From: Lachnospiraceae bacterium
Lineage (GTDB): Bacteria > Bacillota > Clostridia > Lachnospirales > Lachnospiraceae
Assembly (NCBI GenBank): GCA_014804785.1
Contig: JAAUZD010000019.1
Coordinates: forward strand, 15,380 to 49,211
Length of the DNA: 33,832 bases
Direction: 5' to 3'
This document shows, one piece after another, positions 6,757-33,742 of this stretch; position 1 is the first letter of the stretch, and each line of letters begins with the position of its first letter. A model generated the notes under the pieces. The model searched no databases, was not told the origin of the DNA, and saw only the letters and a list, made by a program, of their open reading frames with translations. The position numbers were made by a program, and so were the translations under genes.

Positions 6757-6785
6757 AATCAAAATCTCCTCTCCAAAACTATATA

Positions 6786-7319: not shown

Positions 7320-7362
7320 ATATTTTCCCTTTCCCTGAAAATCTTCTCTAAAAATATGCATG

Positions 7363-7402: not shown

Positions 7403-7453
7403 AAGTCACATTATTCAATTTTATATACAGATGGAACACGCATAAATTTATGG

Positions 7454-7891: not shown

Positions 7892-7903
7892 AAGGCATTC
7901 CCC

Positions 7904-8845: not shown

Positions 8846-9043
8846 TTATTTTGTTACATAAAAATATCCCATGCACTTAAACTCATGTGTATGGGATATC
8901 CCTTTGGCATATTCGATTACATCTTGCCACCAAATGCATATTGGTACAATATTCATTTTCTCATGAATAGCAATATTCAATCCTTCTTCTATTAAGTCCT
9001 TATCCTTTTCAGAAGATAAATTTTGGCATAAGCTATCGCGCAA
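8846..9043 (-). CDS. Possible small protein downstream of the ABC ATPase
   Basis: A 65-codon frame begins at TTG overlapping the stop of the ABC ATPase gene (GCG-CGA-TAG), an arrangement typical of coupled genes. The protein has an ordinary composition with IVPICIWWQDVIEYAKG in the middle and no membrane segment or known motif. Only a weak AGGGG site precedes the TTG. It may be a small accessory protein of the operon, a remnant of a longer gene, or not a gene. AT-rich composition matches the defence operon rather than parM. Confidence 0.35.
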   Translation of the reverse strand: MRDSLCQNLSSEKDKDLIEEGLNIAIHEKMNIVPICIWWQDVIEYAKGISHTHEFKCMGYFYVTK

Positions 9044-12134: not shown

Positions 12135-12672
12135 CAATACCATCTCCTATATACATAGCTACCATTTGAGCTGCCTCAACTTTTTCCTTTTGCAATATTA
12201 TATTGTATAATTCACCATCTTTTTCTTTTAGTTTTTCCATTAAAGAAATTTTTTCATCAGAATTTTTTTTGCGTTCATCAATGTCAAGATACAAAAGCCT
12301 ACTTCTAATATATTCTTTATCGTATAAATTTTCCAGTTTCATTTCATCCCAAATTAATTTTCGTACTGCATACTTATCATGCTCTACCATTTCTTTTATT
12401 TCCCAGCCTACTTTCTCTCTACACTCGAAAATCAAATATATATTCCATTTCTCTATTGCTTTTTCCAACCTTGCCTGAAAATCTACAGCAATTGATGCAG
12501 TAATTTTTTCATAATATTTTTCTATTTCTTCCTGATTTTGGGCTACAAGCTGAAACACATATATATTATATCCCGATTCCTTTTCGATCCAGCAAGCAAT
12601 TTTATCTATCCATTCTACATTGTCCTCATTTCTTAATAATTCCTTACCATGTTCAAACAATTCAAATCCCAT
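12127..12672 (-). CDS. Small middle component of the ABC-3C-type system
   Basis: This 181-residue, highly charged helical protein lies between the protease and the ABC ATPase and overlaps both: 11 nt with the upstream gene and 8 nt with the downstream gene. Its start is ATG with GGAGG 6 nt upstream. ABC-three-component systems carry a small 'middle component' gene in just this place, thought to bridge effector and ATPase. I see KEMVEHDKYAVRKLIW in the centre and a charged C-terminal helix, but no catalytic motif. The functional call is from gene order, size and overlap. Confidence 0.7.
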   Translation of the reverse strand: MGFELFEHGKELLRNEDNVEWIDKIACWIEKESGYNIYVFQLVAQNQEEIEKYYEKITASIAVDFQARLEKAIEKWNIYLIFECREKVGWEIKEMVEHDKYAVRKLIWDEMKLENLYDKEYIRSRLLYLDIDERKKNSDEKISLMEKLKEKDGELYNIILQKEKVEAAQMVAMYIGDGIDE

Positions 12673-13972: not shown

Positions 13973-15008
13973 ATTTATTTTCCTCCACATCAATGCCATT
14001 CTCATCTACAGTAATAAATTTCATGCCATATTTTGAGAATTCATCTTCTGTAAAAATATCATTAGCATTTATATCGTAATTGCAATAAAAATTGACCGAT
14101 TTTGTAGAATTGCAAATAACTCTGCTTAGACATTCCTTACTCGGTCTTCCCTGTACCGTACTCTTTGTACTTATTATATAGTTTTTGCAATCCAACATCT
14201 GTATTAATGATCCGCTCGTATTATGCCTACTGGCATGATGTGCTATTTTACAATAATCTATTTTAAGCTTATTTTCTTGCGAATACCCTAAGTGCAATAA
14301 AGATTCCTCAATGGTAGCTGCTTCCGCATCACCTAACAATAATAGTTTTATTTCTCCTAATTCAAATAAAAAGGCTATACTACTTTTATTAGTTAAAGAA
14401 ACTATTCCCTCAAACTCTGTTTGATTTAATTCTAAAACTCCCTTCTGATAATCATTACTACTAGCAATCTTAGCCGACTGCTTTGATTCTTCAATTTCTT
14501 TTCTGGCAAATTCATTTAATGTATCAATCGTCGGAGATAATATGGTAATCTTTGCGTCACCAATAAAATAGGAATCTCCCACTTTCAAAAATGATCGTCT
14601 CTGAACTGCTGTGTCCTGTAATCTTTCTTCTAAACTTCTGCCTTGTTTCCAGCTAATTTTTGTATCATAATCATACAAATTAATCTCTTTATTAATCCCC
14701 TTTATTTCTAAGGAATTTTGCAACTCTTCTCCAAAATTGAACCACATTTCTTTTATAATAGAAAAATCAAATTCCTTTTGTGAAAACAAACGCAAAATGC
14801 CTTCTATATGATCTGAATCAATATGGGTCAGCACTACTAAATCAAATATATTTTTTTCTTTCTTCATGTTCTCAATATATCCACACAATTGATGATAACA
14901 CAACTTTCCACATCCACCATCAATCAAAATATTATATGTTTTTTCTTCCCCATATGAAATAATTATACAGTCTCCATTGAGGGCTTTTAAAAGTTTTATC
15001 TTAAGCAT
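13953..15008 (-). CDS. ComEC/Rec2-like metallo-beta-lactamase-fold hydrolase
   Basis: This 351-residue protein carries the MBL signature THIDSDH (H62, D64, D66, H67). Downstream metal-ligand motifs follow: LLLLGDAE near residue 225 and IAHHASRHNTS near residue 255. This matches the soluble ComEC-type MBL family, whose members usually act on nucleic acids or phosphodiesters with two metal ions. There is no membrane segment. GAGG lies 4 nt before ATG, a short but usable spacing. It follows the DUF1016 nuclease by 36 nt and overlaps the protease gene by 20 nt. As I recall, an MBL protein next to a trypsin-like protease also occurs in type 1 AVAST systems, which supports an antiviral role. The substrate is unknown. 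Confidence 0.88.
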   Translation of the reverse strand: MLKIKLLKALNGDCIIISYGEEKTYNILIDGGCGKLCYHQLCGYIENMKKEKNIFDLVVLTHIDSDHIEGILRLFSQKEFDFSIIKEMWFNFGEELQNSLEIKGINKEINLYDYDTKISWKQGRSLEERLQDTAVQRRSFLKVGDSYFIGDAKITILSPTIDTLNEFARKEIEESKQSAKIASSNDYQKGVLELNQTEFEGIVSLTNKSSIAFLFELGEIKLLLLGDAEAATIEESLLHLGYSQENKLKIDYCKIAHHASRHNTSGSLIQMLDCKNYIISTKSTVQGRPSKECLSRVICNSTKSVNFYCNYDINANDIFTEDEFSKYGMKFITVDENGIDVEENKYDKRLL

Positions 15009-15044: not shown

Positions 15045-16103
15045 TCACTCTGACAACTCATTTTCTATCTCTTCAATTGTCGGAAGACTGCTCTTAAACT
15101 CATCCCTAAGCACTTTGGTAAGTTCATACTGTGCTATACCTATTGGCTGGGATATATCATCCAATGCATATTCTGCAACAACATCATCTTTATCTTTACA
15201 AATTAAAATTCCTATTGTCTGATTATCCTGTTCTGTCTTCATATTTTTGTTGACTGCAGTAACATAAAAATTCAATTTTCCTGCAAATTCTGGTTTAAAC
15301 TTTTCTGTTTTTAACTCCACAACCACATAACAATGTAACCGGACTTGGTAAAAAAGCAAATCCATATAAAAATCACTATCACCGACTTTTATATGTACCT
15401 GTCTGCCTAAATAGGAAAAACCTGTTCCTAATTCCAATAAAAATTGGGTAATCTGATTAACAAGGGCATCTTCTAACTCTTTTTCATCATATTCCTCACG
15501 CATTGTTAAAAAGTCAAAATTATATGGGTCTTTCAATGTTTGTACTGCTAAATCTGATTGGGGCTCTGGAAGCTTCACTTGAAAATTAGTAATCGCCTTC
15601 CCCTGACGTTCATATAGCTTGCCATCAATCTGATGTTCTAAAACATTTCTGCTCCAATTATTATCTAATGTTTTTTGCACATAAAATATTGCTTCATTAA
15701 TATCTTTACACTTATATGCAATTCTTTGATTGTGTCCCCAAGGTATACTTTTTATCATTTTTTCAACAATCTCAAATTGGGTTACAAGTTGTAACCCTTT
15801 TTCTCCAAGGCTGTAAAATCTATACCAATATCTTATATGTTTGAGGTTTTGTGTTGAAAATCCTGCCATATCTGGAAATTCTTTTTTTAAATCTTTACTC
15901 ATAACAGCAAGAAAAGAATCTCCCCATCTTGCATTTTCCTGCTTTTCAACAATATCCCTACCTAAATCCCAATATAAATTCAATAATTCATAATTTACTT
16001 TAACAGAAGCTTTAATTTGGCTCTGCTTTATCCTCTTCTTAATATCCTTAATCCATGCCCTATATTCTTCTGTCACCGAAAACCCTACCTCGCTCTTTGC
16101 CAC
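15045..16103 (-). CDS. DUF1016 (YhcG-type) PDDEXK nuclease
   Basis: This 352-residue protein has a helical DUF1016 N-terminal domain (about residues 10-160) and a C-terminal PDDEXK nuclease domain. The active-site residues D248 (FYMDLLF) and E263/K265 (VELKTEK) are in place. The family is common near restriction systems and mobile elements and is predicted to cut DNA. The ORF opens at 16226, but the start is set at GTG 16103, because GGGAGG lies 6 nt upstream and the protein then begins where relatives do. It is the first gene of the five-gene unit and is separated from MBL by only 36 nt. It may be part of the system or a separate defence gene. Confidence 0.85.
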   Translation of the reverse strand: MAKSEVGFSVTEEYRAWIKDIKKRIKQSQIKASVKVNYELLNLYWDLGRDIVEKQENARWGDSFLAVMSKDLKKEFPDMAGFSTQNLKHIRYWYRFYSLGEKGLQLVTQFEIVEKMIKSIPWGHNQRIAYKCKDINEAIFYVQKTLDNNWSRNVLEHQIDGKLYERQGKAITNFQVKLPEPQSDLAVQTLKDPYNFDFLTMREEYDEKELEDALVNQITQFLLELGTGFSYLGRQVHIKVGDSDFYMDLLFYQVRLHCYVVVELKTEKFKPEFAGKLNFYVTAVNKNMKTEQDNQTIGILICKDKDDVVAEYALDDISQPIGIAQYELTKVLRDEFKSSLPTIEEIENELSE

Positions 16104-16410
16104 GTTTTTCCTCCCGTTAGTATTTCCTTCCTGCCAATTTCCATTCTCTTTACATGAATATTTTACCATTAATGTTTCTTTTTCTCCATACAAAAATAAC
16201 CATATTACGCAATACAATACGATCATTCCTTACCTTCTTTATCCAAAAAGAATTATTATTCATGTATTCAGGTTTATTTGTTCTATATTTGTAAACCGCT
16301 CTTCTGCGAGAGGCACCGATAGGATTACGCCCCATCAACAAGCTTACACTTCCAATGCCAATCTTACAAATCCTGTTCCATACGATTCCTCTCTTTCTTA
16401 AACATTTGCA
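16104..16410. other. Intergenic region upstream of the DUF1016 gene
   Basis: No convincing gene is seen. A 94-codon frame (16150-16434, minus) starts inside the terminator below and has no ribosome site; its middle (NPIGASRRRAVYKY) could be a gene remnant but matches nothing I know. A promoter for the defence operon should lie here. I see A/T-rich stretches but no clean -35/-10 pair. Confidence 0.4.
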
Positions 16411-16970: not shown

Positions 16971-16979
16971 CTACACAAT
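16959..16979. repeat. Direct repeat at the integrase stop codon
   Basis: CTACACAAT occurs at 16959-16967 and 16971-16979, a 12-bp step. The second copy includes the integrase stop (16971-16973). It could be an integrase or excisionase binding site, or chance. Confidence 0.35.
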
Positions 16980-18104
16980 TTTTAAGGCACTTTCTATTTT
17001 CTCTACCTCTTTGAACTTCTCATCCTCGGTCACATCAACATACAAATTCATCGTAATGCCTACATTCGCATGACCTAAAATTACCTGTAAAGTCTTGGGA
17101 CGCATACCGCCTTCAATACATCTGGTTGCCATCGTGTGTCTTAATACGTGCATTGAAAAACGTCTTATACCAGCTTTGTCACATAGTTTAAATATTGAAG
17201 TGTCGTAAGCTGAATTTTTTGTTGGTTCGCCTTTTCTGCAAAGAAATACAAACTCATTGAACTGCATATTGATCACTTTGATTTCTCTTAGTTTTTCTTT
17301 CTGCCTTTTCAAAATAGCAATCGCTTCTTCTGTTAAAGGTACATCACGATAGCCGGATTTGCTTTTAGGCTCTCCTATTCGCCACTCACCAACACTATAC
17401 CGATACTCCATACTTCTTTGTATGTGTATGACACGCTTCTCCCAATCAATATCAGACCACTTCAAGCCTATCAACTCACCTGTCCGTAATCCTGTCTGCA
17501 AAATAAAAGCAAACTGATTGTAATTACTGCTCTTCTCTGCAACTTCAAGAAATTTCTTTTGTTCATCAATAGTTAATGCTCTGATTTTCTTAGGCTCTTT
17601 CCCGATATTATGTTTTATTCCCTTTGTCACTGGATTTTTGCATATTACATCATTTTCAACAGCATCAGAAAACATACAATACAAAGTAATCCTTGTCTGA
17701 TATATAGTAGATGACTTATAATCATCCTTCATCTGGTTTAAAACATTCTGACAGTGCATTGGCTTTACCTCTAACAATATCATATTGCCGATACACTTCT
17801 TTATATTATGTTCAAACCGCTCTTTATAATTTCTGATCGTATTAGGTCTTATACTGTCACCTTTTATGTTTTCAATCCAGTAATCAAACCATGCCGTTAC
17901 TGTCATATCCCCGGACGCATTGATTCCACCATGTTCATCTTCAAACTTTGCATCCGCATACCACTTACGGCATTCTTGTAGCTTCGGGAAATATTTTTGA
18001 ACTGATTTACCAGTTCTCTTGCTAACAAATCGTGCTGTGTATAAACCATCCTTTCTTTGACAGATACCGACTCCAAGTTCTTTGCCTTTTAAGTCTTTAC
18101 CCAT
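16971..18104 (-). CDS. int: Tyrosine site-specific integrase, Tn916 family
   Basis: This 377-residue integrase has an N-terminal arm-binding domain (about 1-65), a SAM-like core-binding domain (about 70-165) and a catalytic domain. The catalytic set is complete: R207 (TGLRTGE), K249 (PKSKSGYR), H319 and R322 (HVLRHTMA), H345 (LGHANVG) and nucleophile Y355 (MNLYVDV). It integrates and excises circular DNA through a covalent tyrosine intermediate. The ATG at 18104 has AAAGGAG 8 nt upstream; the longer ORF start at 18173 has none. The excisionase gene lies 104 nt upstream on the same strand, the classic xis-int order. No mutation of a key residue is seen, so it should be active. Confidence 0.95.
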   Translation of the reverse strand: MGKDLKGKELGVGICQRKDGLYTARFVSKRTGKSVQKYFPKLQECRKWYADAKFEDEHGGINASGDMTVTAWFDYWIENIKGDSIRPNTIRNYKERFEHNIKKCIGNMILLEVKPMHCQNVLNQMKDDYKSSTIYQTRITLYCMFSDAVENDVICKNPVTKGIKHNIGKEPKKIRALTIDEQKKFLEVAEKSSNYNQFAFILQTGLRTGELIGLKWSDIDWEKRVIHIQRSMEYRYSVGEWRIGEPKSKSGYRDVPLTEEAIAILKRQKEKLREIKVINMQFNEFVFLCRKGEPTKNSAYDTSIFKLCDKAGIRRFSMHVLRHTMATRCIEGGMRPKTLQVILGHANVGITMNLYVDVTEDEKFKEVEKIESALKIV

Positions 18105-18208
18105 AAAATCAACTCCTTTCTGCTGTATTCCAACAAAAAGAGTTTGATACAAACTAACATTATAGCATATCATCTATCATTTTGGAATATTCAAATTGAA
18201 TTTTCAGC

Positions 18209-19434: not shown

Positions 19435-19807
19435 AAGTATCAAAATGATCGCCTGATATGGGAGTTTTAGCATATATCCTCCGTGACCATATTTTTATTA
19501 CTTGCCATGGATCTTCCATTAATTTATCTATTTTTTCCATCATGGGATATGTACATTGAAGTTTTTCATTAAATTCCATGTCATCAAACCCGTTAGGTTT
19601 CCAACTAAGAAAATCTGTCCATTCTCCAACATCTAAACCACCATAAAATTCACCAATTCTTTCTAAAATATTATCATTATGTTCCATAAATCCATATTGT
19701 AAAACCGCATAAGATATTAATTTCAGAGTGCGGTTATTCCTTTCTCTAAAATTAATATCTTTACCAGTCAACCTGATATTTCTTTCTTGAAATTGATTGT
19801 AAATCAT
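19349..19807 (-). CDS. Hypothetical protein following the tape-measure gene
   Basis: This 152-residue protein has no domain I recognise. It is acidic, Trp-rich (GEWTDFLSWKPNGFDDMEF) and soluble. The frame starts 47 nt before the tape-measure stop, so the first ~15 codons overlap it; a later ATG at codon 41 is possible but neither has a strong ribosome site. In siphoviruses the gene after the tape measure usually encodes the distal tail protein, but this one is far too short and does not look like it. Confidence 0.6.
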   Translation of the reverse strand: MIYNQFQERNIRLTGKDINFRERNNRTLKLISYAVLQYGFMEHNDNILERIGEFYGGLDVGEWTDFLSWKPNGFDDMEFNEKLQCTYPMMEKIDKLMEDPWQVIKIWSRRIYAKTPISGDHFDTFMEYELDYLTQKEIHKPVKKHFWNRLCK

Positions 19808-22800
19808 TCATTAATTCTTCGGCACTGGTTGAATTTGTCACATTAGGCATTGTAATATTGAATATATTATTCACAGGCTGTTGGATATTCTTATTGTTAT
19901 TAGTAATATTACTGATAGCTGTATTATTCGTAATCTCTTTTGTCCATTTTTCCATTTGTTTCTGATGCTCAAACATAGCATTGGAAAAGATTTCTTCACC
20001 CTTTTGTATCTTAGCTACAAGAGGTTCAAATGCTTTCATTAACTCCCAACCACGATCGCCTTCTCGGAGAGGACGTAAGACATTTCCATCCGGAGTAATA
20101 ATAGTACCGTCTGAATACTCTACCGTGCCATTTGCATAGCTTTTCACTACTTTGGCATCCACCTTGTTATCCATAATCTTCTTAGTCTGTTCTTCATTAT
20201 AGATAACAGTATCTTTAGGCAGATCCATCATTGTGGGTTCATCCGTAATAATGGTATTGCCGTCTGGAAGTACGGTCATTTCGGTTTGACCATATTCAGA
20301 TACTAAGGCATTCTTTTCAGCATGTGGGAGTCCTTTATATTTACCTGTTCCTTCTGCAAATGCCTTACCGTATTTTGCAGTATATTCACCGCTTTCAAGG
20401 TTCATATTACCAAGTGTGCCTTCTGCAAAAGCAGGTAATCCACCAGTAGTTTCAATATTCACCTTGATAGTACATTCAACTTCCTTACCGTCTATATCGT
20501 CAAGACCATGATTAATTCCTTGAACATGTTCTTCGGCATCACCAATAACATCCCTGAATTCTTCAAACCTACCAATGATACCATCACCGCCAGATTCACC
20601 CATTTCTTCCTCAGTTTTGTCACCAAGATATTCAATGGAACCAACTAGAGTATCATCACTTTCGCCACCAGAATTACCGCCTTCACCATCTGAGCCTTCG
20701 GTACCAATAGCATCTCTGACATCATTGACAGCGGTTTCCATAGAACCAAACTCACCTATTACAGTACCGTCACCCTCGGCATTAGGTTCACCAATTACTT
20801 CATTAGCAGTTTCACCCATCTGTTCAATAGCCCCTGTGAGTGAGTTGCCACTGCCGCCTTCGCCTTGTAAACCTTTACCTCTGGATTCTCCACCAGAAGA
20901 ACCAGAACCGCCACCTTGACTTTCACCACCAGAGGATTCACCGCCTCCGATGATAGTAGAAGCAACAGCATCAACGGCTTCTTTAAGCTGCGTAAACTGT
21001 CCAATAATGCCATCTTCTAAGGAAATCTCATTAAGTGACTCTATTGCAAGTGCAATGCTGTTTATAAGACCTTCATCCTGAGTCCCTAAAGATTCAAGCG
21101 TTTCTTTTACTTCAAGTATTTTCTCTTTTAGTAATAAGAAATCAGCCATTTCACTACTTGTGGCAATTCCTACGGCTTCTTGTTCTTCCTGAATGGCTTC
21201 TGTCTTTTGAGTGATTGCCTCAATGACTTCATCTATTTTGGTTTTTAAATTTTCAAATGCTGTTTGTTCTTCGGATACAAGAGAATTTACTTCTGTAAGG
21301 TTGCTTGATAATTCACCTACGTTTGATGCTACATCACCAACGCTAGTTGCTGTTTCAGAAATGTTTGTGTTGGCATCGGAAGCGGATGTCGCTAACCCAT
21401 CCATCCCCTCTGCAACAGTACCTAATTCGGAACCTTTGGAGGCGAGTTCATCAATTCCTGCGCCTGTTTCTTTGGTCTTGTCAAGGAATGAGCCTAAGTT
21501 TTCTTTAGCAATGCCTGTTGCATATACCAAGCCGTCTGTGAAGTCAGAATTACTGTTCATATCACTAATCAGTGAAATATATCGTGACTTAAAATCCTCA
21601 AAGGCGGCATCCGAACCATTCAACACATCTTCAACAGTATATCCTAAATCTCCAAACACCTGCTGTATATATGAAAATGCTTCTGCTATCTCTTTAACTT
21701 CAGCAAGCTCTTCCCAACGCGACTTCTGCTGTTCTAGGTTTTTGATCATGGAATCCCAATATTGTTCTTGCTCTTTTATTAAAGTGTCATAATATTTATT
21801 GGAAGCATCAATCATGTCTTGAATAGCATCTTTTTGTTCATTCAGATTATCAATGGTATCGTCTATCTTATCATTTAAATCTTCATAAACTTTTATTTGC
21901 TTTTCAATGTCAGCAATCTTTATTTCATCTTCTGCATCGGACAACTCATTTTTAGCTTTGCGAATACCTTCAGTGTCCTGAACATAATGCATACCCTTAT
22001 CTTCACTGTATTGAAGAATTGTGCGTTGGTGCTGCATCCGTTCTAACTGTATCTGTTTCTCTTGGAGTGTTAGTTGTCGATTACGCTCCTCATTTGCCTC
22101 GCGAATTTTATCAATCTCATCATTCAGACCATCGATAATATCTTGGTTAGCCTTTTTCTCTTTTTCTAATGCTTTTATTTTATCATCAATAGCATCAATC
22201 TGTGACTGGTAGGCTTCCTCTGCGGCTTGTTGTTCAGCTTTAAGACTTTCAATCGCAGCTTCTTTTGATTCTGTATAGGAATCTATTTTTGAATCCATTA
22301 ATTTAGAGATTCCACTGAGTGCAGAATCATAGAGGGATTTCATACCATCAAGATATTGTCTCTCGTATTTAGCATATTCTTCTGCATATTTCTTTTTATC
22401 TTTGAAAAATTTCTGATAGAGTGCCTTTAAAGCATCCAGATATTCCTTTTCAGAAATTTTTCCTTGATCTCTTAACGTTTCTAGTTCCTTAAGTTCCTTT
22501 TCAAATGCTTCGACATAAGCGTCACTGGCTTCTTTTCCTGCTGATTTTGCTGATTTTGTCGCACCGCTGAAATCAACTTTCGGTTCATATTTAATATTGC
22601 TTGCTGATTCCTTGATTGCAGTTTCAAGTTCTGCTGCTCTAGCCAGTTTTGCGTCTAACTGTCCGGGTGTAAGTGTACCGCTTGCTACCTGTTGGTATAT
22701 CTGTTCCAACTCTGTCAGCTGTTCAATTACTTCACCAGTGTATCCTGCATTTTCAGCAAGAGTAAGTAAATTTGCAACTTCACCTGCGGTATTCATATCC

Positions 22801-25800
22801 TGTAGTCCACACAATTCCTTCTGGAATGTAAGCATTGCAATAGCCTGTGATACGTTTTCAGCGGATACAATTTCGTTTGCAAAAGCGGCTATCTGTTCAT
22901 CTGTAGCATTTGCCAGATCAAGACCAGCTTCTTTCAATGCTTCTGTATTACTGATTAATGCATCAAAAGCGACAAGTTCCTCATTTACAACACCTAAATC
23001 CTCAAGTGCCGCTTTCATTGTCTCAAAATCTTCTGCACCTGATATTCCAGCCTGTGCAATAGATGTGGCAAGGTCATTGAAAGCATCTTTTACATCATTT
23101 GCCTCTGATTCAGAATTATTTAAAACTCTTACAAAGTCCTCAAAAGCAGAGTAGTCTACAGTAATATCATCTATTTTGTTTAGTTCGTCCAGTTTTGATT
23201 TAATGGAATCACATGTTGATAGGATATCAATACTGTTCAATGCAAATCCATCATCCGTAAATATATCCTGCCATGCGGATTTTAAAGAATCAAATGCAGG
23301 TTTGAGCTGAGTGTTTAGTTGATCTATGGTGTCGGAGATGGAAAGGGTAGGGGAAACTGATCTCATCTGCTCTGTCATATCACTTACAGCATCCCCTACT
23401 TCTTCAATACTTGTTGCCAAACTCGTAAAATCCGCTGTTAATAATTCTTTAAATCTATCCTGCAAATCAACACAGGAACCAGCGGCACTAACTAATGCAG
23501 ACTCCATAGTCTTATATTCTTCTGTCACGCTTGGAATACCGTTCTGTGCCATATAATTTAATTTTTCTTCCGCATACAGCTTTTCAATGTATGTATCAAG
23601 ACTTTCGGACATTGTATTGATTGCAGTGTTTAAATCTTCATAGATTTCTGTATCAAGTAAGGCTTCATCATCTCCTGATGCAGATACCAACTTTTCCCTT
23701 GCTTCTACTAATGAATTATAAAATTCTAAGGCTTCTGTAGGATCATCACTCGATATATCCCATGAGATATTACCCCACTTACGGTTGACAGTCTCATATT
23801 CTTTTAGTGAATCTGATACAATTGCAACTGCTTTCTGAGCTTCACTCGATAATGACTTGCCTTTGCTGTTAGAATCAATAGATACTTTTGAGCCTTTCCA
23901 ATCGCTCCAAATTTCACCCTGTAATTCTTCTTCTGCTGACTTCCTGCCGATAGTAGCGGTTACTGCCTGAGACTGTAATTCTTCCTTTGTCACTCTTTCA
24001 AGCGCGGCTGCATATTCATCTGTGCCCGCTGTGAGATTTTCGAGTGCTTTTGTTTTATCGCCAAGAGCAACAACAATATTTTCTACCGCTGTTTTAAATG
24101 CTTCTTCCTCGGAAGTCGTTCTATCTTGAATAGATGCAAGGCGCGTATATTCATTATATAAATTTTTTATTTTATCTGCATTTTCGGCGGCGGTTGTTGC
24201 GGCTTCTATGTTTTTCTGGCGTGTTTCTTCTAATTGCTGGTTATATTTTGAAATAAGGGATGTTGCAACACCAATAACTGTACTAATTGCCATTATGGAT
24301 ATTCCAATTTTATTGGTCATCCATGCTGCCTTGATACTTGCACCAAGCCCTTTCACTGCTGCTGAAAGACTAAATGTACTTGCTGTAGCTGCCCCTTGTG
24401 CAACCGTCTGTGTCTCTGTTGTTTGAATTAGTCCAAGTTGTGCTAATCTTGCTTGTGCCTGTTCTTCTTCTAATGTATCTAATTGTAAAATCTCAATTAA
24501 TTGGGACTCACTTAAATTCCTATTAGCAAGAACCTGTTTCAATTGGGCATCCGTAAGATTCACACATGATGTTTTTAACGTGTCCATTGCATTAGCATAT
24601 TTAACTGTTTCTTGCGCATGAACACCAATCTGTTTCACCGCATCTAAGGCATTTCCATAATTACTAATCTGTACCGCACTATTCTTAAATGCTACTGTAA
24701 GTGTAGTAACGCCTTTCAAAATTCCTAAAGCCAAGAACCCCTTAATCGTTCCTTCAAGGATATTCCAAGAATTAGCGAACTCTAAGACCGCTGTGCCTGC
24801 ATTTGTCAATCCTTTAACTGTCTCACCATTAAGAATATTACTGTAAGTTTCAGTCATAGCTACACTAAATCTCTCAGAAGCCGCTTGTGCGCTGTTTAAA
24901 TAGATTTCATATTCCGCACTTGCGGTTCCTGCCGCATTTAAAGATCTCTCCAAAAGTTCATTAGCTTCTGACATATTCTGTAAAATTGCGGAAATCTGAT
25001 TACTACGGTTTTTCCCGGCGATAAGGTCAAGCAATGCACTCGCATCTTTATCTGACATTTTGTCATAAACTTTTGCAATATCATTATAAATATCATAAAT
25101 AGAGCGAAAAGTTTCTTCGTCTGCTTCTAAGATATTAACACCACCGCTACCATTTATATTAGTTAATGCTTTAATCTTTTCTGCTAAAGTAGATGTAGAT
25201 TCAATAACATTATCTGTTTCTTCACCCATTTCTTGAAGTTCTGCTGTACATCCTCTAATTCTTAGTGCCGATGTACGGATTGCCAATGCTACTTTATCAG
25301 AATCCTGTACCGCTCTGTTACCTGCACCAAGTAAAGCAATAAATTCATCAACGGAAGTATTTGCGTCTGACATTACCGACCCTACCGCCTGAATGCCCTC
25401 TGCAACTTCTTTTTGTGAAATACTTGCCGTATTTCCGATAATATCAATCTTATCATTCAATGCCTGTGCCTTTTCTGCAAGCTGATCCATTCCATAATCG
25501 TCAATCTCAATATACCCTTGCAAACCAGCTAAAAGTGCTTTAGAAGCAGATACAGAATCCATGTCTCCAACCTTTTCAAGCTGTACTGCCATATCCGCTA
25601 ATGCTTCTGAATCAGTAAGATTGTAACCAGCTCTTGAAAATGTCGTAACCGAATCTATATAATCTTTTGTGGCAACAGCCAATTGCTTTGTCTTACTGAT
25701 AACCCTATCAAGATAATCAGGAAAACCATCCCTCGTGATTGCCGCATTTACACGCGATAAATCTGTCATAGATTTATCTAATTCTTTTGCTTCTGTCCAC

Positions 25801-26393
25801 GCATTACGCAATTGTGCGGTAAACTGCATTATGACACCAGTACTTCCAAATAATCGTAAAACTTTAGACAAACCATTTTTCAATGCATCTGTCATTGTCA
25901 TTCCAGCATTTCCAGTTATTTTAAGTTCTGATCTAAGGGAGCCTAACTGTGTGCGTAATGTACTTAATTCTACTGAATTTCTTGCCATTTCTGCACTGTC
26001 TAATAAAGAATTATACTTTATGGACATGTCATTGTCTTTGAATAACTTGCTATTTTGTTGTGCCAATAGCTTTATATCATTTAAAAGTTTTTCCTTTTTA
26101 ACAGAAAAAGCTACTTCTAAAGGCTTCGAATCAACCGCTTTTTGCGCTTGCTGAGTTGCTTGATACACTGATGTAGTAATACCTTTATTATCAACTTTCC
26201 CTGTTAAATTTACAGTGCCATTTAAAGAGGATAAATCCTGCTTCAATTGTGCCTTAGTTTTGCTTTTACTAAGTGTACCAATCAAGGGAAGCTTAAAATC
26301 GCCAAGATTTTTAATGTCTTCCTTTATCTGCTTCTGTGATTGAGTTTTCTTCAAAGAAGCAATCAAATCAAGAATAAAATTGTTTTGTTCCAT
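19761..26393 (-). CDS. Phage tail tape-measure protein, TP901 core, 2210 residues
   Basis: This very long protein sets tail length in siphoviruses and is ejected with the DNA. Residues about 190-520 form the TP901-type core (KELDKSMTDLSRVNAAITRD, then TFSRAGYN). A hydrophobic segment (IGISIMAISTVIGVATSLI) lies at about 692-714, and a strong coiled coil at about 1335-1565. A Gly/Ser-rich linker at about 1815-1850 is followed by a conserved C-terminal end (FNITMPNVTNSTSAEELM). Long tails scale at roughly 0.15 nm per residue, so a tail near 330 nm would be expected if it is functional. AAGGAG lies 10 nt before the ATG. No major tail, tail chaperone or baseplate gene flanks it, which is odd for a complete phage. 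Confidence 0.92.
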   Translation of the reverse strand: MEQNNFILDLIASLKKTQSQKQIKEDIKNLGDFKLPLIGTLSKSKTKAQLKQDLSSLNGTVNLTGKVDNKGITTSVYQATQQAQKAVDSKPLEVAFSVKKEKLLNDIKLLAQQNSKLFKDNDMSIKYNSLLDSAEMARNSVELSTLRTQLGSLRSELKITGNAGMTMTDALKNGLSKVLRLFGSTGVIMQFTAQLRNAWTEAKELDKSMTDLSRVNAAITRDGFPDYLDRVISKTKQLAVATKDYIDSVTTFSRAGYNLTDSEALADMAVQLEKVGDMDSVSASKALLAGLQGYIEIDDYGMDQLAEKAQALNDKIDIIGNTASISQKEVAEGIQAVGSVMSDANTSVDEFIALLGAGNRAVQDSDKVALAIRTSALRIRGCTAELQEMGEETDNVIESTSTLAEKIKALTNINGSGGVNILEADEETFRSIYDIYNDIAKVYDKMSDKDASALLDLIAGKNRSNQISAILQNMSEANELLERSLNAAGTASAEYEIYLNSAQAASERFSVAMTETYSNILNGETVKGLTNAGTAVLEFANSWNILEGTIKGFLALGILKGVTTLTVAFKNSAVQISNYGNALDAVKQIGVHAQETVKYANAMDTLKTSCVNLTDAQLKQVLANRNLSESQLIEILQLDTLEEEQAQARLAQLGLIQTTETQTVAQGAATASTFSLSAAVKGLGASIKAAWMTNKIGISIMAISTVIGVATSLISKYNQQLEETRQKNIEAATTAAENADKIKNLYNEYTRLASIQDRTTSEEEAFKTAVENIVVALGDKTKALENLTAGTDEYAAALERVTKEELQSQAVTATIGRKSAEEELQGEIWSDWKGSKVSIDSNSKGKSLSSEAQKAVAIVSDSLKEYETVNRKWGNISWDISSDDPTEALEFYNSLVEAREKLVSASGDDEALLDTEIYEDLNTAINTMSESLDTYIEKLYAEEKLNYMAQNGIPSVTEEYKTMESALVSAAGSCVDLQDRFKELLTADFTSLATSIEEVGDAVSDMTEQMRSVSPTLSISDTIDQLNTQLKPAFDSLKSAWQDIFTDDGFALNSIDILSTCDSIKSKLDELNKIDDITVDYSAFEDFVRVLNNSESEANDVKDAFNDLATSIAQAGISGAEDFETMKAALEDLGVVNEELVAFDALISNTEALKEAGLDLANATDEQIAAFANEIVSAENVSQAIAMLTFQKELCGLQDMNTAGEVANLLTLAENAGYTGEVIEQLTELEQIYQQVASGTLTPGQLDAKLARAAELETAIKESASNIKYEPKVDFSGATKSAKSAGKEASDAYVEAFEKELKELETLRDQGKISEKEYLDALKALYQKFFKDKKKYAEEYAKYERQYLDGMKSLYDSALSGISKLMDSKIDSYTESKEAAIESLKAEQQAAEEAYQSQIDAIDDKIKALEKEKKANQDIIDGLNDEIDKIREANEERNRQLTLQEKQIQLERMQHQRTILQYSEDKGMHYVQDTEGIRKAKNELSDAEDEIKIADIEKQIKVYEDLNDKIDDTIDNLNEQKDAIQDMIDASNKYYDTLIKEQEQYWDSMIKNLEQQKSRWEELAEVKEIAEAFSYIQQVFGDLGYTVEDVLNGSDAAFEDFKSRYISLISDMNSNSDFTDGLVYATGIAKENLGSFLDKTKETGAGIDELASKGSELGTVAEGMDGLATSASDANTNISETATSVGDVASNVGELSSNLTEVNSLVSEEQTAFENLKTKIDEVIEAITQKTEAIQEEQEAVGIATSSEMADFLLLKEKILEVKETLESLGTQDEGLINSIALAIESLNEISLEDGIIGQFTQLKEAVDAVASTIIGGGESSGGESQGGGSGSSGGESRGKGLQGEGGSGNSLTGAIEQMGETANEVIGEPNAEGDGTVIGEFGSMETAVNDVRDAIGTEGSDGEGGNSGGESDDTLVGSIEYLGDKTEEEMGESGGDGIIGRFEEFRDVIGDAEEHVQGINHGLDDIDGKEVECTIKVNIETTGGLPAFAEGTLGNMNLESGEYTAKYGKAFAEGTGKYKGLPHAEKNALVSEYGQTEMTVLPDGNTIITDEPTMMDLPKDTVIYNEEQTKKIMDNKVDAKVVKSYANGTVEYSDGTIITPDGNVLRPLREGDRGWELMKAFEPLVAKIQKGEEIFSNAMFEHQKQMEKWTKEITNNTAISNITNNNKNIQQPVNNIFNITMPNVTNSTSAEELMNDLQSISRKKYQVDW

Positions 26394-27819: not shown

Positions 27820-27999
27820 TTAATGCGTATCCAGATAATCATTGAGAGCTTGCAATGAGGACTCCCATAATTCACGTTTGCCATTCATAAATTTTGAAAT
27901 AATCTCTATCGGTATTCCTGTAACTTCTGAAATATTCTTTTGCCTAAATGCAAATGTCTTTTCTAATAGCTTGTTTCTTACGCTTTCCTGTGTCATCAT
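27820..27999 (-). CDS. Small helix-turn-helix protein
   Basis: This is a ~59-residue protein made of a single helix-turn-helix domain (FRQKNISEVTGIPIEIISKF, then NGKRELWESSLQALNDYL). AAGG lies 5-8 nt before two adjacent ATG codons; the first (27999) is listed. It is clearly related to the 65-residue protein at 29271-29468, with the same spacing of TG(I/L), S-F/W and the C-terminal NxYL/NFL helix. Both resemble single-domain Cro/phage-type regulators. Likely targets are the operators seen in this block, but no direct evidence links them. Confidence 0.7.
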   Translation of the reverse strand: MMTQESVRNKLLEKTFAFRQKNISEVTGIPIEIISKFMNGKRELWESSLQALNDYLDTH

Positions 28000-28074
28000 T
28001 TTCACCTTCCTCGTATATTTTATTGGTATATCAAATTATTTGATAAAATAAAAAACATTTTTTATATAGTAAAA

Positions 28075-28189: not shown

Positions 28190-28801
28190 TCATTCTATAG
28201 AAAAATCGTCAATACTAAAATCAAAAAATTCATTTATCTTTTTATATATTCTTAAAATGTTGTATTCGCCAACATTATAAGTTTTATCATATGAAACCTT
28301 TTCAATTCTTCTATAATGAATTGTTCTCATTTGGTCAAAACGTAAATATGATATTTTCTCATTATCATGTTCTTTATTTGGGACACCTAATTTAATAGGA
28401 AATTCCATCACCCTTAGTGCTTCGCTAGAACATGGTATCACAAAATACATATTAGCCTTCATCTCGGACATCACAACACCATAATGTCCATCTGATATTT
28501 CACTACAATAACCATAACCAAAGTTAATATGAACAATGTCACCAATATTTATTTGAGAAGGATAATTGGGTGGAAGATATTTCCTTTTATCTTGAACCAT
28601 TTTTTCTTTTTCAACAGGATTCTTTTCTTCTCTGATTTTTTTTATTAACGTCTTTTCTATTTTATCTTTTCTTGTATCTATTGCCAACTTATTACACCAT
28701 CCAATAAACTTGTCGAAATTATTTGGTGTAATATTTTGGATGATAGTGCCTTTTAGTGTACCCATTAAAGAGACTAATTTTTTGCTTTCTTCTTCAGTCA
28801 T
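28190..28801 (-). CDS. PemK/MazF-like protein with N-terminal helical extension
   Basis: This is a 203-residue protein. The C-terminal ~115 residues match the MazF/PemK fold: IGDIVHINFGYGYCSEISDG opening, GVVMS and YFVIPCSS strands, and the RFDQMRTIHYRRIEKV end that carries basic residues near the active site in these ribonucleases. The first ~85 residues are charged helices not found in ordinary MazF (about 110 aa). No antitoxin-sized partner abuts it; the nearest candidate is the small helix-turn-helix gene at 27820. The start has GGGGA 6 nt upstream. It could be a sequence-specific RNase used by the phage-like element or a solitary PemK-like protein with another role. Confidence 0.75.
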   Translation of the reverse strand: MTEEESKKLVSLMGTLKGTIIQNITPNNFDKFIGWCNKLAIDTRKDKIEKTLIKKIREEKNPVEKEKMVQDKRKYLPPNYPSQINIGDIVHINFGYGYCSEISDGHYGVVMSEMKANMYFVIPCSSEALRVMEFPIKLGVPNKEHDNEKISYLRFDQMRTIHYRRIEKVSYDKTYNVGEYNILRIYKKINEFFDFSIDDFSIE

Positions 28802-29270: not shown

Positions 29271-29468
29271 TCATGCAAATTTTTTCTGTTTTTCCCTAAG
29301 AAAATTTTGCACCGCATTAATTTCTGTTTCCTTTAAATTTACTCTTCCAGAAAACCATGAAGATAAAATACTGCTACTCAGTCCAGTCTGTTTCGCTACA
29401 ATACCTTTCTTCATACCGTTCTCTTCAAGGAAGTTCAACATTTCCTGTCTTAATTCTTCTGATTTCAT
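29271..29468 (-). CDS. Small helix-turn-helix protein
   Basis: This is a 65-residue protein that is a single helix-turn-helix domain (GIVAKQTGLSSSILSSWFSG, then NLKETEINAVQNFL). GGAGG lies 8 nt before the ATG. It is a paralogue of the protein at 27820-27999. It lies between the RNA polymerase gene and the structured RNA region, separated from the polymerase stop by a hairpin. It may be the regulator that reads the repeated operator at the polymerase promoter, which would form a feedback loop; that is inference from position. Confidence 0.75.
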   Translation of the reverse strand: MKSEELRQEMLNFLEENGMKKGIVAKQTGLSSSILSSWFSGRVNLKETEINAVQNFLREKQKKFA

Positions 29469-29503
29469 TACAAAATCCTCCCTTCATTACCATAACTAAG
29501 AGC

Positions 29504-29542
29504 AAGCCCCGAAAGCCTTGATTTATCAGCGTTTCAGGACTT
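29504..29542. terminator. Hairpin between the RNA polymerase gene and the small HTH gene
   Basis: On the minus strand AAGUCCUGAAA pairs with UUUCGGGGCUU over 11 bp with two G-U pairs, around a 17-nt loop. It has no U-run on that strand. On the plus strand the same stem has two C-A mismatches but is followed by five T. It may end or slow transcription after the polymerase gene, or be an RNA processing signal. Confidence 0.5.
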
Positions 29543-29581
29543 TTTGTAAAAATATCTTCGATTTTTATATCAGCACATAAG

Positions 29582-32500
29582 TTATGAAACTTTATCGCTA
29601 ATATCTTTTTCTCTCATCGAAAATAAGCCTAACAGCAGTTCCTTATGTGAATTATACAGGATATCCATAATTGCTTTCTTATACTGCCCTGCACCGCCAT
29701 CATGGGCTCTGGCTTGGTTTGATCCGAATAATTTGTAGAGTATAAGGTACACTGTCTGCTTGGTCAGTTTTATTTCTGCCGCTTCTTCTACAACACCTCT
29801 AAACAGTTCCCTCTTCTCCATTTCTGCATCATACTCTAATCCATTTGCCTTTGAATGATTGACATGCAGTTCTTTCCTGTTATTTTCATACTTCTCTGCC
29901 AGTTCTATTATTCTTTTGGCATGTTTGTCGTTTCCAGTCTTCAGTTTACCATTCTGTCTATACTCAACAGGCTTTTCAAAAAAATCAATGAATCCTAATG
30001 TAACACTATCCCTCTTTTTCTTATGGGGATATTCATCTTTAAGTATCTGTTGAAGATAATCCATACTGCAATTAAAATATTCATAATATGCCGTGTCACT
30101 TTCAGGAAATACTTCTTTAAAAAACATCGGTCTTGCCATGACATGTTCCCTGTTTCTTTTACGGCTTTTAAGCAACGTGTCAATTTCTTTATTGTTATCT
30201 CTCAGTTGCTTTTTACTTTCTTCCGTTACAGAAGTGGATATGCCTTTCAATATTTCCTCATTTTCAGCATTTAAACTGAGAACCTTTTGTATCACTTCAT
30301 AATCTGCTTTCTCTTCCTCTGCAATATCCGTATCAGTTGTCAGGTACTTTTTCTTTACGGTTTTAACTATAAATTCAACATCTCCTGTTTTGATTATGTC
30401 ATGCAACAGATTATCGGAATCTGCATGACCGACAATATAGCTTCTAATCTTTTTCAGTTCTGCATCTGTATCAATCGGATATTCCCGTTTTGCTCTGTCA
30501 ATCTCACATCCGGAAATAGATGCAAGCTTTGAAATTTCGTTCCTAAGATATAATAATACATTCTTCTTTTTCTCTTCATCAATGCCGGCATCATAAAGCA
30601 CATCAAAATAATATGATTCTAATAGCTGTGATAAATCTACAATTTCCCCGATTTTAGCATTTGCGATTGTTTTATCACAATCAATAAAATCTTCCATACA
30701 ATAATATCTTGCTTTGGATTTAGGTTGTACCAAACATATGGGAGTTGGAAAATTTTCCTCACAATACCGTGCCTTCTCAACTAATATCTCATTTGAGCTG
30801 ACCAACAGGGTATCTGAATCAAAATCCATTCCATTAGCCCGATACATAATATCTGATTCTATACTATTTATTACCACAATATTATCAGAAAGCATCATAT
30901 ACCTGTCAAACCATTCATGATATGTATTATGCAAGCATATCACATTTCCAGAATAAATGTGTGGACTCCTTGTTGCAATCAAATCTTTGTCATGCGAAAA
31001 ATATTTGCAGTATGCTTCTCTCCCCTTATGTATGCGCATCCACTCATTTTGCTGAATACCGCATGCATGTTGCATCATCTCAAAAGGATTAGAACATACA
31101 ACACAATAATCTGAGTTTTCCAGTTTATATTTTCCTTGCTTTAACAAATCTTTATAATCTGTACCAAGCATATTGTTCTTATAATCTCTGAAAAACTTGG
31201 TATATTGTACATCTGGATTGATCTTATATAATTCGCACACAGAATCATCAAATTTATATATCTTTTCCTTCGCCTTATTTGCCTTTTTATGTCCCTTTCT
31301 TTCAATAAACACATTCATAAAATAGTCATTATCATCTTTAGCTTTCTGTATTCGGTCAAATTCATAACGCAACAGTTCTCTCACTTCATCCTTGTTTAAT
31401 GGAATAGAATTATCGACCTGATAATTATATCCTTTGATAAAGCCAGACGCATATTCATTCTTCACAACCCCAAATATACATTCATCTCTTTCTATCTCTT
31501 TCAACCAATACTCAAAAGTAGCTTGTTCTAAGTCCTCTACTGAATTTTCAAATGGTATAAAATTCTTCTGTTTCATGAATTTTAAACTATTCGGAGTCGT
31601 GATCAGCTTAATCTCTTCCACAGTCTTCGCTAAAGTGAAACCATTTAATTGCTTTATGTCAGTCACTTCATTATCTCTAAACCATCTCTGTATATCAAAA
31701 CAGAATGCTGCGCTCTTAAAGAATCTGTTTCTTAGGAGAATCATGGACTTACCATCATGGTAATATTCTGGAGAAAGAAGAGACTGTCCATCAAATATAT
31801 CATTATAAATGGTGAATTCTTCTTCATTATCATGTGTGACTGCCCTTCCATCCTGACCCATTTCAGTGATACTTGCCTTGCCTTTGGCAATTTTACAAGG
31901 TACTTTAATATCTGGAACCAACAATATCTCATTACATTTAATAACTGCAATATCTTTAATTTCGCTTAGTATAAGGCTTTCTGCTGCTTTTAATCCAGCT
32001 ATATCAACTTTCTCTGATATACTGTCATAATCAATCCCCATTCTTGCCCATGTCAAAAAATCTTCTAACAACTTTTCCTTAATAAACAGAATTGCTCCTG
32101 TCCGTGCTTTTCCTGGACTCCTCATGAACTGTACATATTTTTCACCATCCAGAATGAACCCTGGATATACTTCATCCATCAATTCATCTATCTTTTTATC
32201 TGTCTTTAATTCCTCTACAATTTCAAGACTGTACTTTCCTTTTTTATCTATCTTTATTCGTGGTTTGCATTTAACCTGTCCGTCTTTATCTTTCGCTACA
32301 GTCTTAGAAGATTTATCAAATGTAACGTTTACTATATCATTTGAATATACTTTATCTCCAATAATATCAAAAAAAGCATTCTGAATTTTAGACCAATGGA
32401 TTGCCCCTAAAGAATATGGCATCTTCACTTTATATAGCTTTCTCGGTAAAACCTTTCTGTCTTTGTCCCAAAAGACAGATGTATTATATCCACAATCGTA

Positions 32501-32587
32501 TTCTTGATTACCATATATATAGCGTGCTTCAATACTCATAATTGATACACCATCTTTTAAATCATCAAGCGTTATTCTTCTACTCAT
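29582..32587 (-). CDS. YonO-like single-subunit two-barrel RNA polymerase
   Basis: This 1001-residue protein carries the signature of the YonO/QDE-1 branch of the two-barrel polymerases, which also includes the beta/beta' subunits of cellular RNA polymerase. The motif ANGMDFDSDTLLV places catalytic aspartates at D588, D590 and D592. The usual form is DxDGD, so the Gly to Ser change at 591 is odd. The preceding TRSPHIYSGN (R540, P542, G547) matches the conserved Arg-Pro...Gly segment found before this motif in the family. A CxxC (C495, C498) with C509 may bind zinc. After the motif, NAKIGEIVDLSQLL fits the next conserved helix. The ATG at 32587 has GGAGG 9 nt upstream; a TTG two codons earlier is less likely. 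In SPbeta-type phages such enzymes transcribe late genes without a sigma factor; that role here is inferred. Confidence 0.8.
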   Translation of the reverse strand: MSRRITLDDLKDGVSIMSIEARYIYGNQEYDCGYNTSVFWDKDRKVLPRKLYKVKMPYSLGAIHWSKIQNAFFDIIGDKVYSNDIVNVTFDKSSKTVAKDKDGQVKCKPRIKIDKKGKYSLEIVEELKTDKKIDELMDEVYPGFILDGEKYVQFMRSPGKARTGAILFIKEKLLEDFLTWARMGIDYDSISEKVDIAGLKAAESLILSEIKDIAVIKCNEILLVPDIKVPCKIAKGKASITEMGQDGRAVTHDNEEEFTIYNDIFDGQSLLSPEYYHDGKSMILLRNRFFKSAAFCFDIQRWFRDNEVTDIKQLNGFTLAKTVEEIKLITTPNSLKFMKQKNFIPFENSVEDLEQATFEYWLKEIERDECIFGVVKNEYASGFIKGYNYQVDNSIPLNKDEVRELLRYEFDRIQKAKDDNDYFMNVFIERKGHKKANKAKEKIYKFDDSVCELYKINPDVQYTKFFRDYKNNMLGTDYKDLLKQGKYKLENSDYCVVCSNPFEMMQHACGIQQNEWMRIHKGREAYCKYFSHDKDLIATRSPHIYSGNVICLHNTYHEWFDRYMMLSDNIVVINSIESDIMYRANGMDFDSDTLLVSSNEILVEKARYCEENFPTPICLVQPKSKARYYCMEDFIDCDKTIANAKIGEIVDLSQLLESYYFDVLYDAGIDEEKKKNVLLYLRNEISKLASISGCEIDRAKREYPIDTDAELKKIRSYIVGHADSDNLLHDIIKTGDVEFIVKTVKKKYLTTDTDIAEEEKADYEVIQKVLSLNAENEEILKGISTSVTEESKKQLRDNNKEIDTLLKSRKRNREHVMARPMFFKEVFPESDTAYYEYFNCSMDYLQQILKDEYPHKKKRDSVTLGFIDFFEKPVEYRQNGKLKTGNDKHAKRIIELAEKYENNRKELHVNHSKANGLEYDAEMEKRELFRGVVEEAAEIKLTKQTVYLILYKLFGSNQARAHDGGAGQYKKAIMDILYNSHKELLLGLFSMREKDISDKVS

Positions 32588-32948
32588 TAACAATTACCTC
32601 CACAATAACAACAAATTTAATAGCTTCAGTTATTACTTCTCCATTCATCACAAAACTTTTCTCATAATTTCTTCAAACCTTCAAAAATTCCATGGAAAAT
32701 TTTAATTTTTCCGCAAAAATCAGAAATAAATCCAAAAAATCCGTAACAAAAAATAAACTTAAAGCAATCCCAATTTTGAAACTGCTTTAAATCTATATAT
32801 CACTTCTACAATCACTATTAAATTTTCACTCACATAATGGAATCTTTGAATCTGTGTGTTTGTATGTATTAGTTACCTATATCAGTTTTGCAATCCATGT
32901 ACTGCCAATACAATGAATTGCTTTATATGATCGAATATATGTTCTGTG
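32588..32948 (-). other. Long 5' leader of the RNA polymerase gene
   Basis: About 360 nt separate the predicted transcription start from the polymerase ATG. No long frame is present. A 22-codon frame (32648-32580) ends in TAG overlapping the polymerase start (AATGAGTAG), which could couple translation, but its ribosome site is weak. An attenuator-like hairpin lies in the middle. The leader is very A/T-rich. Confidence 0.5.
32747..32790 (-). terminator. Attenuator-like hairpin in the polymerase leader
   Basis: On the minus strand TTAAAGCA (32790-32783) pairs with TGCTTTAA (32766-32759), followed by GTTTATTTTTTG. This is the form of an intrinsic terminator inside the leader, about 160 nt after the start of transcription. 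It could limit polymerase expression until it is read through. Confidence 0.6.
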
Positions 32949-33028: not shown

Positions 33029-33742
33029 CTAAAAATTTCTTTCTATCATATCTATCACTGTTTTTAATTCATCTGTATCATTTATAAAGACATCAATAGA
33101 ATCAAATTTACCCAAAATTTCTATAATTCTGCTTATATCTGAGATATTTGCATGATCTTCAATAAAATGTTCTGGAAACATATCAGGGAAAATACTAATA
33201 TATGCCATAGTTTCAGCTATTGCAAACAATTCATCACGCATAAACTCCAAATTATTTGATGATAATTCCTTGGCAAACTTAAACTTTTTAGCCATAGTAT
33301 CGATGTACACACGATCATCCACAATTTTCTTATTTTTATGGAGCAAATCATAATAAATGATAAGTTCTTTTTTCTTTGTTAAAAATTCATCCAAATAATA
33401 AAATAGTTTATAATCATAATGTCCTTCAATCTCATATAAATCAGATAACATCATTTTCTTTGTAATAATACACCTATGTACTAAATGAATCAGTTCATGT
33501 ATTGTTTTTCTGATAGATGCTTCTAATGACAAATCAGATTTTAACAAAATGTATGCCTTTTTATTTATAGTCTGTGGCATAACAACTGTTGCATCTATGT
33601 ACTCAAATTGGTCTTTACATAGCATTACTTTCTCTCTTTGTTTCTCTGTTTCAGTATATTGCATAATGATATCATAAAAATAATCGCTTTCAATAATTTC
33701 TATTTCACTACAAAATGTCATGCGTCGAATTATAGTTCCCAC
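33029..33742 (-). CDS. HExxH metallopeptidase-like protein (ImmA/IrrE-like)
   Basis: This 237-residue protein has a zinc-protease motif HELIH (H82, E83, H86, counted from the GTG at 33742) in an IRKTIHELIHLVH helix. A later segment (RDELFAIAETMAY, then FPEHF) resembles the Glu-bearing helix that gives the third ligand in ImmA/IrrE peptidases. Those enzymes cleave or inactivate repressors of mobile elements. The rest is divergent, so the family is tentative. Start choice is open: GTG at 33742 directly follows an in-frame TAG and has no ribosome site; ATG at 33721 has only a distant GGTGG. The 5' end may therefore have been altered. It is upstream of, and insulated from, the RNA polymerase gene. 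Confidence 0.6.
   Translation of the reverse strand: MGTIIRRMTFCSEIEIIESDYFYDIIMQYTETEKQREKVMLCKDQFEYIDATVVMPQTINKKAYILLKSDLSLEASIRKTIHELIHLVHRCIITKKMMLSDLYEIEGHYDYKLFYYLDEFLTKKKELIIYYDLLHKNKKIVDDRVYIDTMAKKFKFAKELSSNNLEFMRDELFAIAETMAYISIFPDMFPEHFIEDHANISDISRIIEILGKFDSIDVFINDTDELKTVIDMIERNF

Follow-up and report, generated by a model that had tools for sequence, protein, structure and literature searches.

A YonO-type single-chain RNA polymerase from a Lachnospiraceae bacterium belongs to a DxDSD branch widespread in gut Clostridia and viral contigs

We analysed a stretch of 33,832 nucleotides (hereafter the window) from contig JAAUZD010000019.1 of a Lachnospiraceae bacterium (assembly GCA_014804785.1) and found that its gene at 29582-32587, on the minus strand, encodes a single-chain two-barrel RNA polymerase of the kind of YonO from phage SPbeta. 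The gene is real and intact, belongs to a known superfamily, has an unusual neighbourhood and is not something categorically new; the serine in its metal-binding loop marks a branch, here called DxDSD, which is widespread in gut Clostridia and viral contigs. Very probably, the protein is a polymerase, most likely DNA-templated, encoded by an integrated mobile element that probably derives from a phage, and its most likely task is to transcribe the genes of that element once induced. In the available part of PMC5467207, YonO is described as a one-chain relative of cellular RNA polymerase serving a phage, and its promoter sequence and need for other factors are left open there. The DxDSD branch provides natural variation to compare with YonO.

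A single-chain polymerase gene

The open reading frame begins with an ATG at 32587 and translates to 1001 amino acids and a stop; a TTG two codons before the ATG is an alternative start. GGAGG at 32597-32601, 9 nucleotides upstream of the ATG, reads as a probable ribosome-binding site (this signal, the motifs and the neighbouring features named below up to the integrase all lie on the minus strand). The two motifs reported by the first-pass annotation stand in the translation at just the residues it gave, RSPHIYSG at 540-547 (codons 30947-30970) and the metal-binding triad DFDSD at 588-592 (codons 30812-30826). Comparison with the copy in Acetatifactor muris revealed 154, 90 and 449 differences at codon positions 1, 2 and 3 over 1001 codons, with a nonsynonymous divergence (dN, NG86) of 0.12 and a saturated synonymous divergence (dS). 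Evidently, the gene is under strong purifying selection, as compared with three relatives of 68-79% identity.

Conservation was examined with profile A2, built on ten close relatives plus the window protein itself, YonO excluded. It matched 190 of 194 sequences; the four unmatched ones were L002, which has no such gene, and L007, L010 and L011, which are divergent and carry a glycine triad. We then left out L001, L003 and L016, all three copies of the window gene, and six loci with a longest open reading frame below 650 amino acids (L105, L106, L107, L187, L188, L192). This gave 181 rows with 165 distinct sequences, L017 and L036 being one and the same gene. D266, G267, R286, K291, K336, Q390, R540, P542, D588, D590 and D592 never vary in these 181 rows, and all of them, together with G485, G647, D697 and K700, are also invariant in 12 of 12 divergent relatives. 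A lone DxDxD per 1000 residues means little; it is because the triad aspartates, R540 and P542 are invariant in both sets that the motif match is more than chance. DxDxD is given as the signature of the superfamily in the available parts of PMC7824862 and PMC10770324, and the former also names two basic residues from the other barrel. Here, two lysines are found in all 181 rows: K291 of the first barrel (codon 31715-31717), which closes the DG...R....K motif at 266-291, and K336 (codon 31580-31582), which probably has a first-barrel role as well.

The protein matches phrog_8308, a family of unknown function, at E 1.5e-89 over residues 12-720; this family also matches B. subtilis, the match not specifying the gene, and none of 13 other control genomes. 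No Pfam or NCBIfam model names the protein. Its four Pfam matches (HNH, Ago_N and two other weak ones) are all under the curated cut-off and were dismissed as chance, as was a weak PADLOC match to Cas11a (E 0.0042). In a blastp search of an eight-protein set, the window protein reached SPbeta YonO at E 1.2e-5 over 58 N-terminal residues, and profile A2 scored YonO at 54 bits, with RSP falling on the RSPH of YonO at 492 and the triad on its DNDGD at 535. With profile A1, which is broader, made from YonO-like proteins and hence favouring YonO, the scores were 490 bits for YonO, 28 bits for RDR2 and 17.9 bits for QDE-1. Among sequences of solved structures, A1 found maize RDR2 (6.9e-6) and QDE-1 (0.0079), with their D-x-D-G-D (DYDGD in QDE-1) aligned to the family triad; the RDR2 alignment also covers the first-barrel segment, where DGIG...QIRYGGYKG is paired with the motif around K291. 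When PDB sequences were searched by phmmer with the single window protein, neither QDE-1 nor RDR2 appeared even at E values as high as 10; the sole matches, two flagellar-protein rows at E about 0.1, were rejected, profile A1 having found polymerases instead. With tblastn, 13 records of the phage collection were found, among them a 176-kb human gut phage contig (8e-80), Spbetavirus BUCT082 (1e-10) and Enterocloster phages (4e-10). The BUCT082 gene is only about 25% identical to SPbeta YonO.

The AlphaFold2 model of the protein (predicted local distance difference test score, pLDDT, 89.8) matches plant RDR2 and QDE-1 best among PDB structures, followed by phage two-barrel RNA polymerases. It aligns with QDE-1 over residues 2-1001 and with cellular large subunits over 476-850. 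These two alignments support the presence of both double-psi barrels in one predicted chain, the barrels not having been traced strand by strand. The crAss-like phage protein gp66 (6VR4) has no row among the 50 structure matches listed for the model, an absence that excludes nothing. Together with the phrog_8308 match and the YonO profile with both motifs in register, the model bears out the first-pass annotation, which had called the gene a single-chain polymerase of the YonO/QDE-1 type.

Since the nearest solved folds are those of QDE-1 and RDR2, the protein might instead be an RNA-templated polymerase producing double-stranded RNA in the host, and four of the 13 phage records indeed label the relative 'RNA-dependent RNA polymerase'. 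We hold this to be highly improbable. The labels are annotations and not tests, the window protein reaches YonO in the small blastp set while phmmer misses both QDE-1 and RDR2, and no sequence comparison gave closer kinship with eukaryotic RNA-dependent RNA polymerases than with YonO. YonO is moreover reported as strictly DNA-dependent in the available part of PMC5467207. In the DNA-templated enzyme that we favour, RNA would be made on DNA as in YonO and its kin, with Asp588, Asp590 and Asp592 holding the catalytic Mg ions and Lys291 and Lys336 as the basic pair supplied by the first barrel. By analogy with cellular polymerases, in which these residues have such a role, Arg540 and Pro542 may help to place the 3' end and the incoming nucleotide.

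Serine in the metal-binding loop marks a branch

A change from glycine to serine within this loop had been regarded as unusual by the first-pass annotation, a view that the wider comparison overturns. Residue 591 is S in 165 of the 181 rows, G in nine, T in three and A, I, Y or M in one each; residue 589 is F, Y, M, V, C, L, Q or K. This tally undercounts glycine, because L007, L010 and L011, three further loci (two genes) with DYDGD or DWDGD, were too divergent for profile A2, and the row set leans towards the DxDSD branch, since that branch supplied the patterns for the scans. A less biased draw consisted of 391 genomes of the class, 23 of which profile A1 matched. Besides the window, it yielded 20 distinct genes with a readable triad, counted by eye as 15 with G, four with S and one with T.

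For the tree, thinning at 60% identity reduced the 181 rows to 64 (L034, L035 and L036 were removed as more than 60% identical to the window protein). The tree separates, with support 100, a DxDSD side of 55 rows (52 S, 2 T, 1 I) from nine others (7 G, one Y and one M), and residue 591 needs at least five changes on it. One member of the subclade of the window gene, L114, has isoleucine there. Across the wider family glycine is more common than serine at this position, and serine stably marks a branch instead of being an oddity of the window gene. On the tally, the tree and the comparison with YonO, we rejected the change as the sign of a dead or exotic enzyme. The glycine of DxDGD is not required in this superfamily, and the tally corrects a likely misreading.

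The suggestion that the protein may represent a new branch holds in part. The branch is separate and well supported, but it belongs to a known superfamily and is already a PHROG of unknown function, the only name for it that we found. Our literature search, with subscription papers mostly outside it, returned no study of the DxDSD branch or of its carrier element, and the titles of papers matching 'DFDSD' as a word had no polymerase subject.

Relatives were found at several taxonomic levels. phrog_8308 matched 7 of 37 genomes of the genus, the window's own counted, and the window protein as query matched 18 of 299 genomes of the family. The genome loci with relatives, of which the best 80 of 126 were kept, are titled mostly Lachnospiraceae or other Clostridia. 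In IMG/VR, alignment A2 gave 137 stretches encoding relatives (the best 80 kept); the single window protein, used as query against viral contigs, gave none. The plasmid collection yielded one weak match, on a Bacillus velezensis plasmid.

Some of these relatives are interrupted. Group I introns lie within the polymerase gene at L152:12081-12410 and L170:4225-4507, near the EID..K codons (window residues about 697-701). The frame breaks at the DxDSD codons (window residues about 586-589) in L107, near 11330-11670, and in L187, near 1481-1723, with no Rfam intron over threshold there. The viral contig L152, which bears the polymerase, also carries a ROOL RNA (324.9 bits) beside tRNA genes at 15439-16016.

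The carrier element and the probable role

Next, we examined the genomic context of the polymerase genes. Within the larger DxDSD clade, neighbour clusters in 54-61 loci match SPbeta yonG, yonJ (exonuclease), yonN (HU-like) and yonF (terminase) at E 1e-36 to 1e-200 in the eight-protein set, these counts being lower bounds as many loci are contig fragments. The PHROG labels of example neighbours agree: exonuclease, DNA-binding protein, terminase and portal. The SPbeta late block is transcribed by YonO, according to the available part of PMC5467207, and a gene order like that of this block supports a late-transcription role for the larger-clade relatives.

The window gene belongs to a subclade with L034 from A. 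muris DSM 23669 (79% identity), L035 (69%), L036 (68%, on the same contig as G167), L018 in genome G316 (42%) and the viral contigs L114 and L168. Every member has a gene for a small helix-turn-helix protein directly behind the polymerase, within a few hundred bases downstream, and five (window, L034, L035, L036 and L018) have two, which makes this arrangement the lead that the subclade offers. In the window, the first of them (65 amino acids, 29271-29468) has weak PHROG regulator matches. It is followed by a PemK/MazF-like toxin-fold protein at 28190-28801 (Pfam 3e-06, PHROG MazF-like 1e-10) and by the second helix-turn-helix protein (61 amino acids, 27820-28005), which is one of the sequences building our helix-turn-helix profile. 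Then comes a giant tape-measure-like protein of 2210 amino acids at 19761-26393 with a PhageMin_Tail domain (PF10145, E 1.5e-11, over the gathering score) and relatives in G335, G167 and G334.

Such giant proteins, 2210-2375 amino acids long, follow the helix-turn-helix genes in the window, L034 and L036. In L035 the relative, 41% identical to that of the window, is split by a stop codon into reading frames of 1388 and 1234 amino acids, so that a tape-measure-like gene follows the polymerase in four of the five chromosomal members. The protein of L036 (15707-22690) ends in choline-binding-type repeats (PF19085, E 4.9e-12). Downstream of the block, a tyrosine integrase at 16971-18173 probably marks the left end of the element; A. 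muris and G316 likewise have an integrase after the block, and L035 has a gene that by eye is serine-recombinase-like. Beyond the recombinase, A. muris, L035 and G316 carry genes of chromosomal appearance, judged by eye; in the window, defence and plasmid-type genes are found there.

Two members of the subclade are viral contigs with head genes. L168 is a phage, with terminase, portal, head protease and capsid genes after the polymerase. L114 carries terminase, portal, capsid, tail-tube-like, tape-measure, minor-tail and ParA genes within 35,235 bases bounded by a 98-base terminal repeat and looks like a complete phage-plasmid. Its polymerase relative (L114 / G336) has 1123 amino acids and DFDID; the named phages among YonO relatives have records of about 90-137 kb.

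The chromosomal members differ in what surrounds the gene. A TubZ gene lies upstream in the G167 and G316 elements. The window contig (C19) ends 1.2 kb upstream of the polymerase, and near the start of another contig of the same genome, C28, there is a TubZ gene 80% identical to that of G316, with neighbours matching genes of the G316 and G167 elements. The ends of C19 and C28 do not overlap; judging from gene order, the remainder of the element probably lies on C28. No match to TubZ_C_3 was found in the genomes behind L034, L035 and L114. GmrSD/Schlafen-like and Mrr-like genes (L250:1402-3192 and 12607-13635) lie near the TubZ gene on C28, which also carries a Lar-like restriction-alleviation gene (L250:16330-17616).

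Packaging genes were sought through a few families. The phrog_9 terminase and phrog_12 portal had no match in G167 or G335, and their matches in G000 are on contigs other than C19 and C28; the phrog_2 terminase gave only weak matches in G167, G335 and G000, none of them on C19 or C28. The packaging matches listed for the A. muris genome lie on contigs other than that of the element, and G316 has its phrog_9 and phrog_12 matches on the contig of the element but about 160 kb away. The L114 portal protein as query found no match in five genomes, which alone shows nothing, other packaging families not having been searched there. The chromosomal elements may be decayed prophages, phages split by assembly, or elements lacking a capsid.

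The lack of terminase (phrog_9, phrog_2) and portal (phrog_12) matches on C19 and C28 would suit an inactive relic in a decaying prophage. For the polymerase itself this is very hard to reconcile with an intact frame, the retention of all catalytic residues and the strong purifying selection, and we give it little credence. Another reading, which we consider rather unlikely, is that the subclade consists of integrated, often TubZ-segregated elements without head and packaging genes, whose own YonO-type polymerase, under the direction of a tiny helix-turn-helix partner or two, would express the giant tape-measure-like protein for a use other than in a phage.

The position of the tape-measure-like gene after the polymerase in the window, L034, L035 and L036 also invites comparison with virion RNA polymerases, packed with the tape-measure protein in the tail and injected for early-gene transcription, examples being Thermus phage P23-45 and crAss-like phages. 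A virion polymerase of this superfamily fused to a tape measure is known (available part of PMC10770324). In the window, however, the two proteins are separate reading frames and not fused, and Pfam and PHROG scans identified no other tail gene. L114 has partition and other genes separating its tape measure from the polymerase, and many larger-clade DxDSD members, as well as SPbeta, have the gene beside those of the terminase block, in a position for late transcription. A virion polymerase is thus quite improbable.

In the reading that we favour, the polymerase would, after induction, read genes of its own element, including the downstream block with the two helix-turn-helix genes, the MazF-like gene and the giant tape-measure-like gene. 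The small helix-turn-helix protein is a candidate for a factor that selects promoters or regulates the polymerase; such promoter selection may be its role, a guess for which adjacency in every subclade member is the sole support. Gene order fits a late-gene position in many relatives and in L168.

Several observations weigh against this proposal. The polymerase activity of the window protein is predicted from sequence, and its best structural neighbours, QDE-1 and RDR2, copy RNA. No head or packaging genes were seen beside the window polymerase with the few families tried, so 'late genes' may not exist there. Of 187 loci, no more than 11 have a helix-turn-helix gene within 4 kb (L017 and L036 are one gene, and four of the loci also supplied profile sequences), so that few phage relatives share the partner. 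G316 has no gene of tape-measure size after the polymerase, and its genome has no match to the window tape-measure protein. Finally, no shared promoter sequence was found among the two conserved sequences tried, which did not amount to a full motif search.

These two sequences, located downstream of the polymerase, each have one exact copy in the window, at the polymerase; one of them also has a match with three mismatches elsewhere in the window, within chance. Each element among the loci has a single exact occurrence, and the shorter sequence also turns up in two unrelated loci. We rejected them as dispersed promoters because of this single copy per element; they look like the leader of the next gene. 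The whole stretch between the polymerase stop codon and the first helix-turn-helix gene (29490-29587, about 100 nucleotides) is conserved with 80% mean identity in four members and foldable, with a central hairpin at about 29504-29542. Of 29 predicted pairs, five are changed on both sides in at least one sequence and several others are broken in one sequence. No Rfam match was found in the window, this stretch included. Judged from these four sequences, it may act as a leader or attenuator.

Other genes of the window deserve brief mention. At 33029-33742 (minus strand), a 237-amino-acid protein with HELIH is zinc-peptidase-like by eye only, with nothing over cut-off in Pfam and no match in NCBIfam or PHROGs. 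A Lamassu-like defence operon at 9033-15008 comprises metallo-beta-lactamase (MBL)-fold and protease-like LmuA matches, LmuC and a 1036-amino-acid LmuB (E 1.3e-157), and is adjoined by a YhcG-type nuclease gene at 15045-16226. Genes of the type found on plasmids or integrative and conjugative elements occupy 3760-8821, with a partition protein (phrog_691), a replication initiation protein and, by eye only, a MobC-like protein at 3760-4110.

Comparison with known polymerases

QDE-1 of Neurospora and plant RDR2 share the predicted fold but are eukaryotic, RNA-copying enzymes of about 12% identity to the window protein. Clostridium phage c-st is known for TubZ. The polymerases of large phages such as c-st are single-chain and YonO-like as described in the available part of PMC7824862. 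P23-45-type polymerases comprise gp64-type non-virion enzymes and the virion enzyme gp96; they differ from our case in that the tape-measure-like protein of the window is encoded by a separate gene.

Among phage members of phrog_8308, MT835469 is 31% identical over 74% of the query and Enterocloster phage PMBT24 24% identical over 46% (tblastn), and the window subclade branches apart from them with support 99. YonO of SPbeta and the window protein are both single chains, and profile alignment brings their DxDxD and RSPH motifs into register; the neighbouring genes of many larger-clade DxDSD members match yonN, yonJ, yonG and yonF. YonO, however, has 839 amino acids and DNDGD, whereas the window protein has 1001 and DFDSD, and the window polymerase is accompanied by helix-turn-helix genes, a tape-measure-like gene and an integrase.
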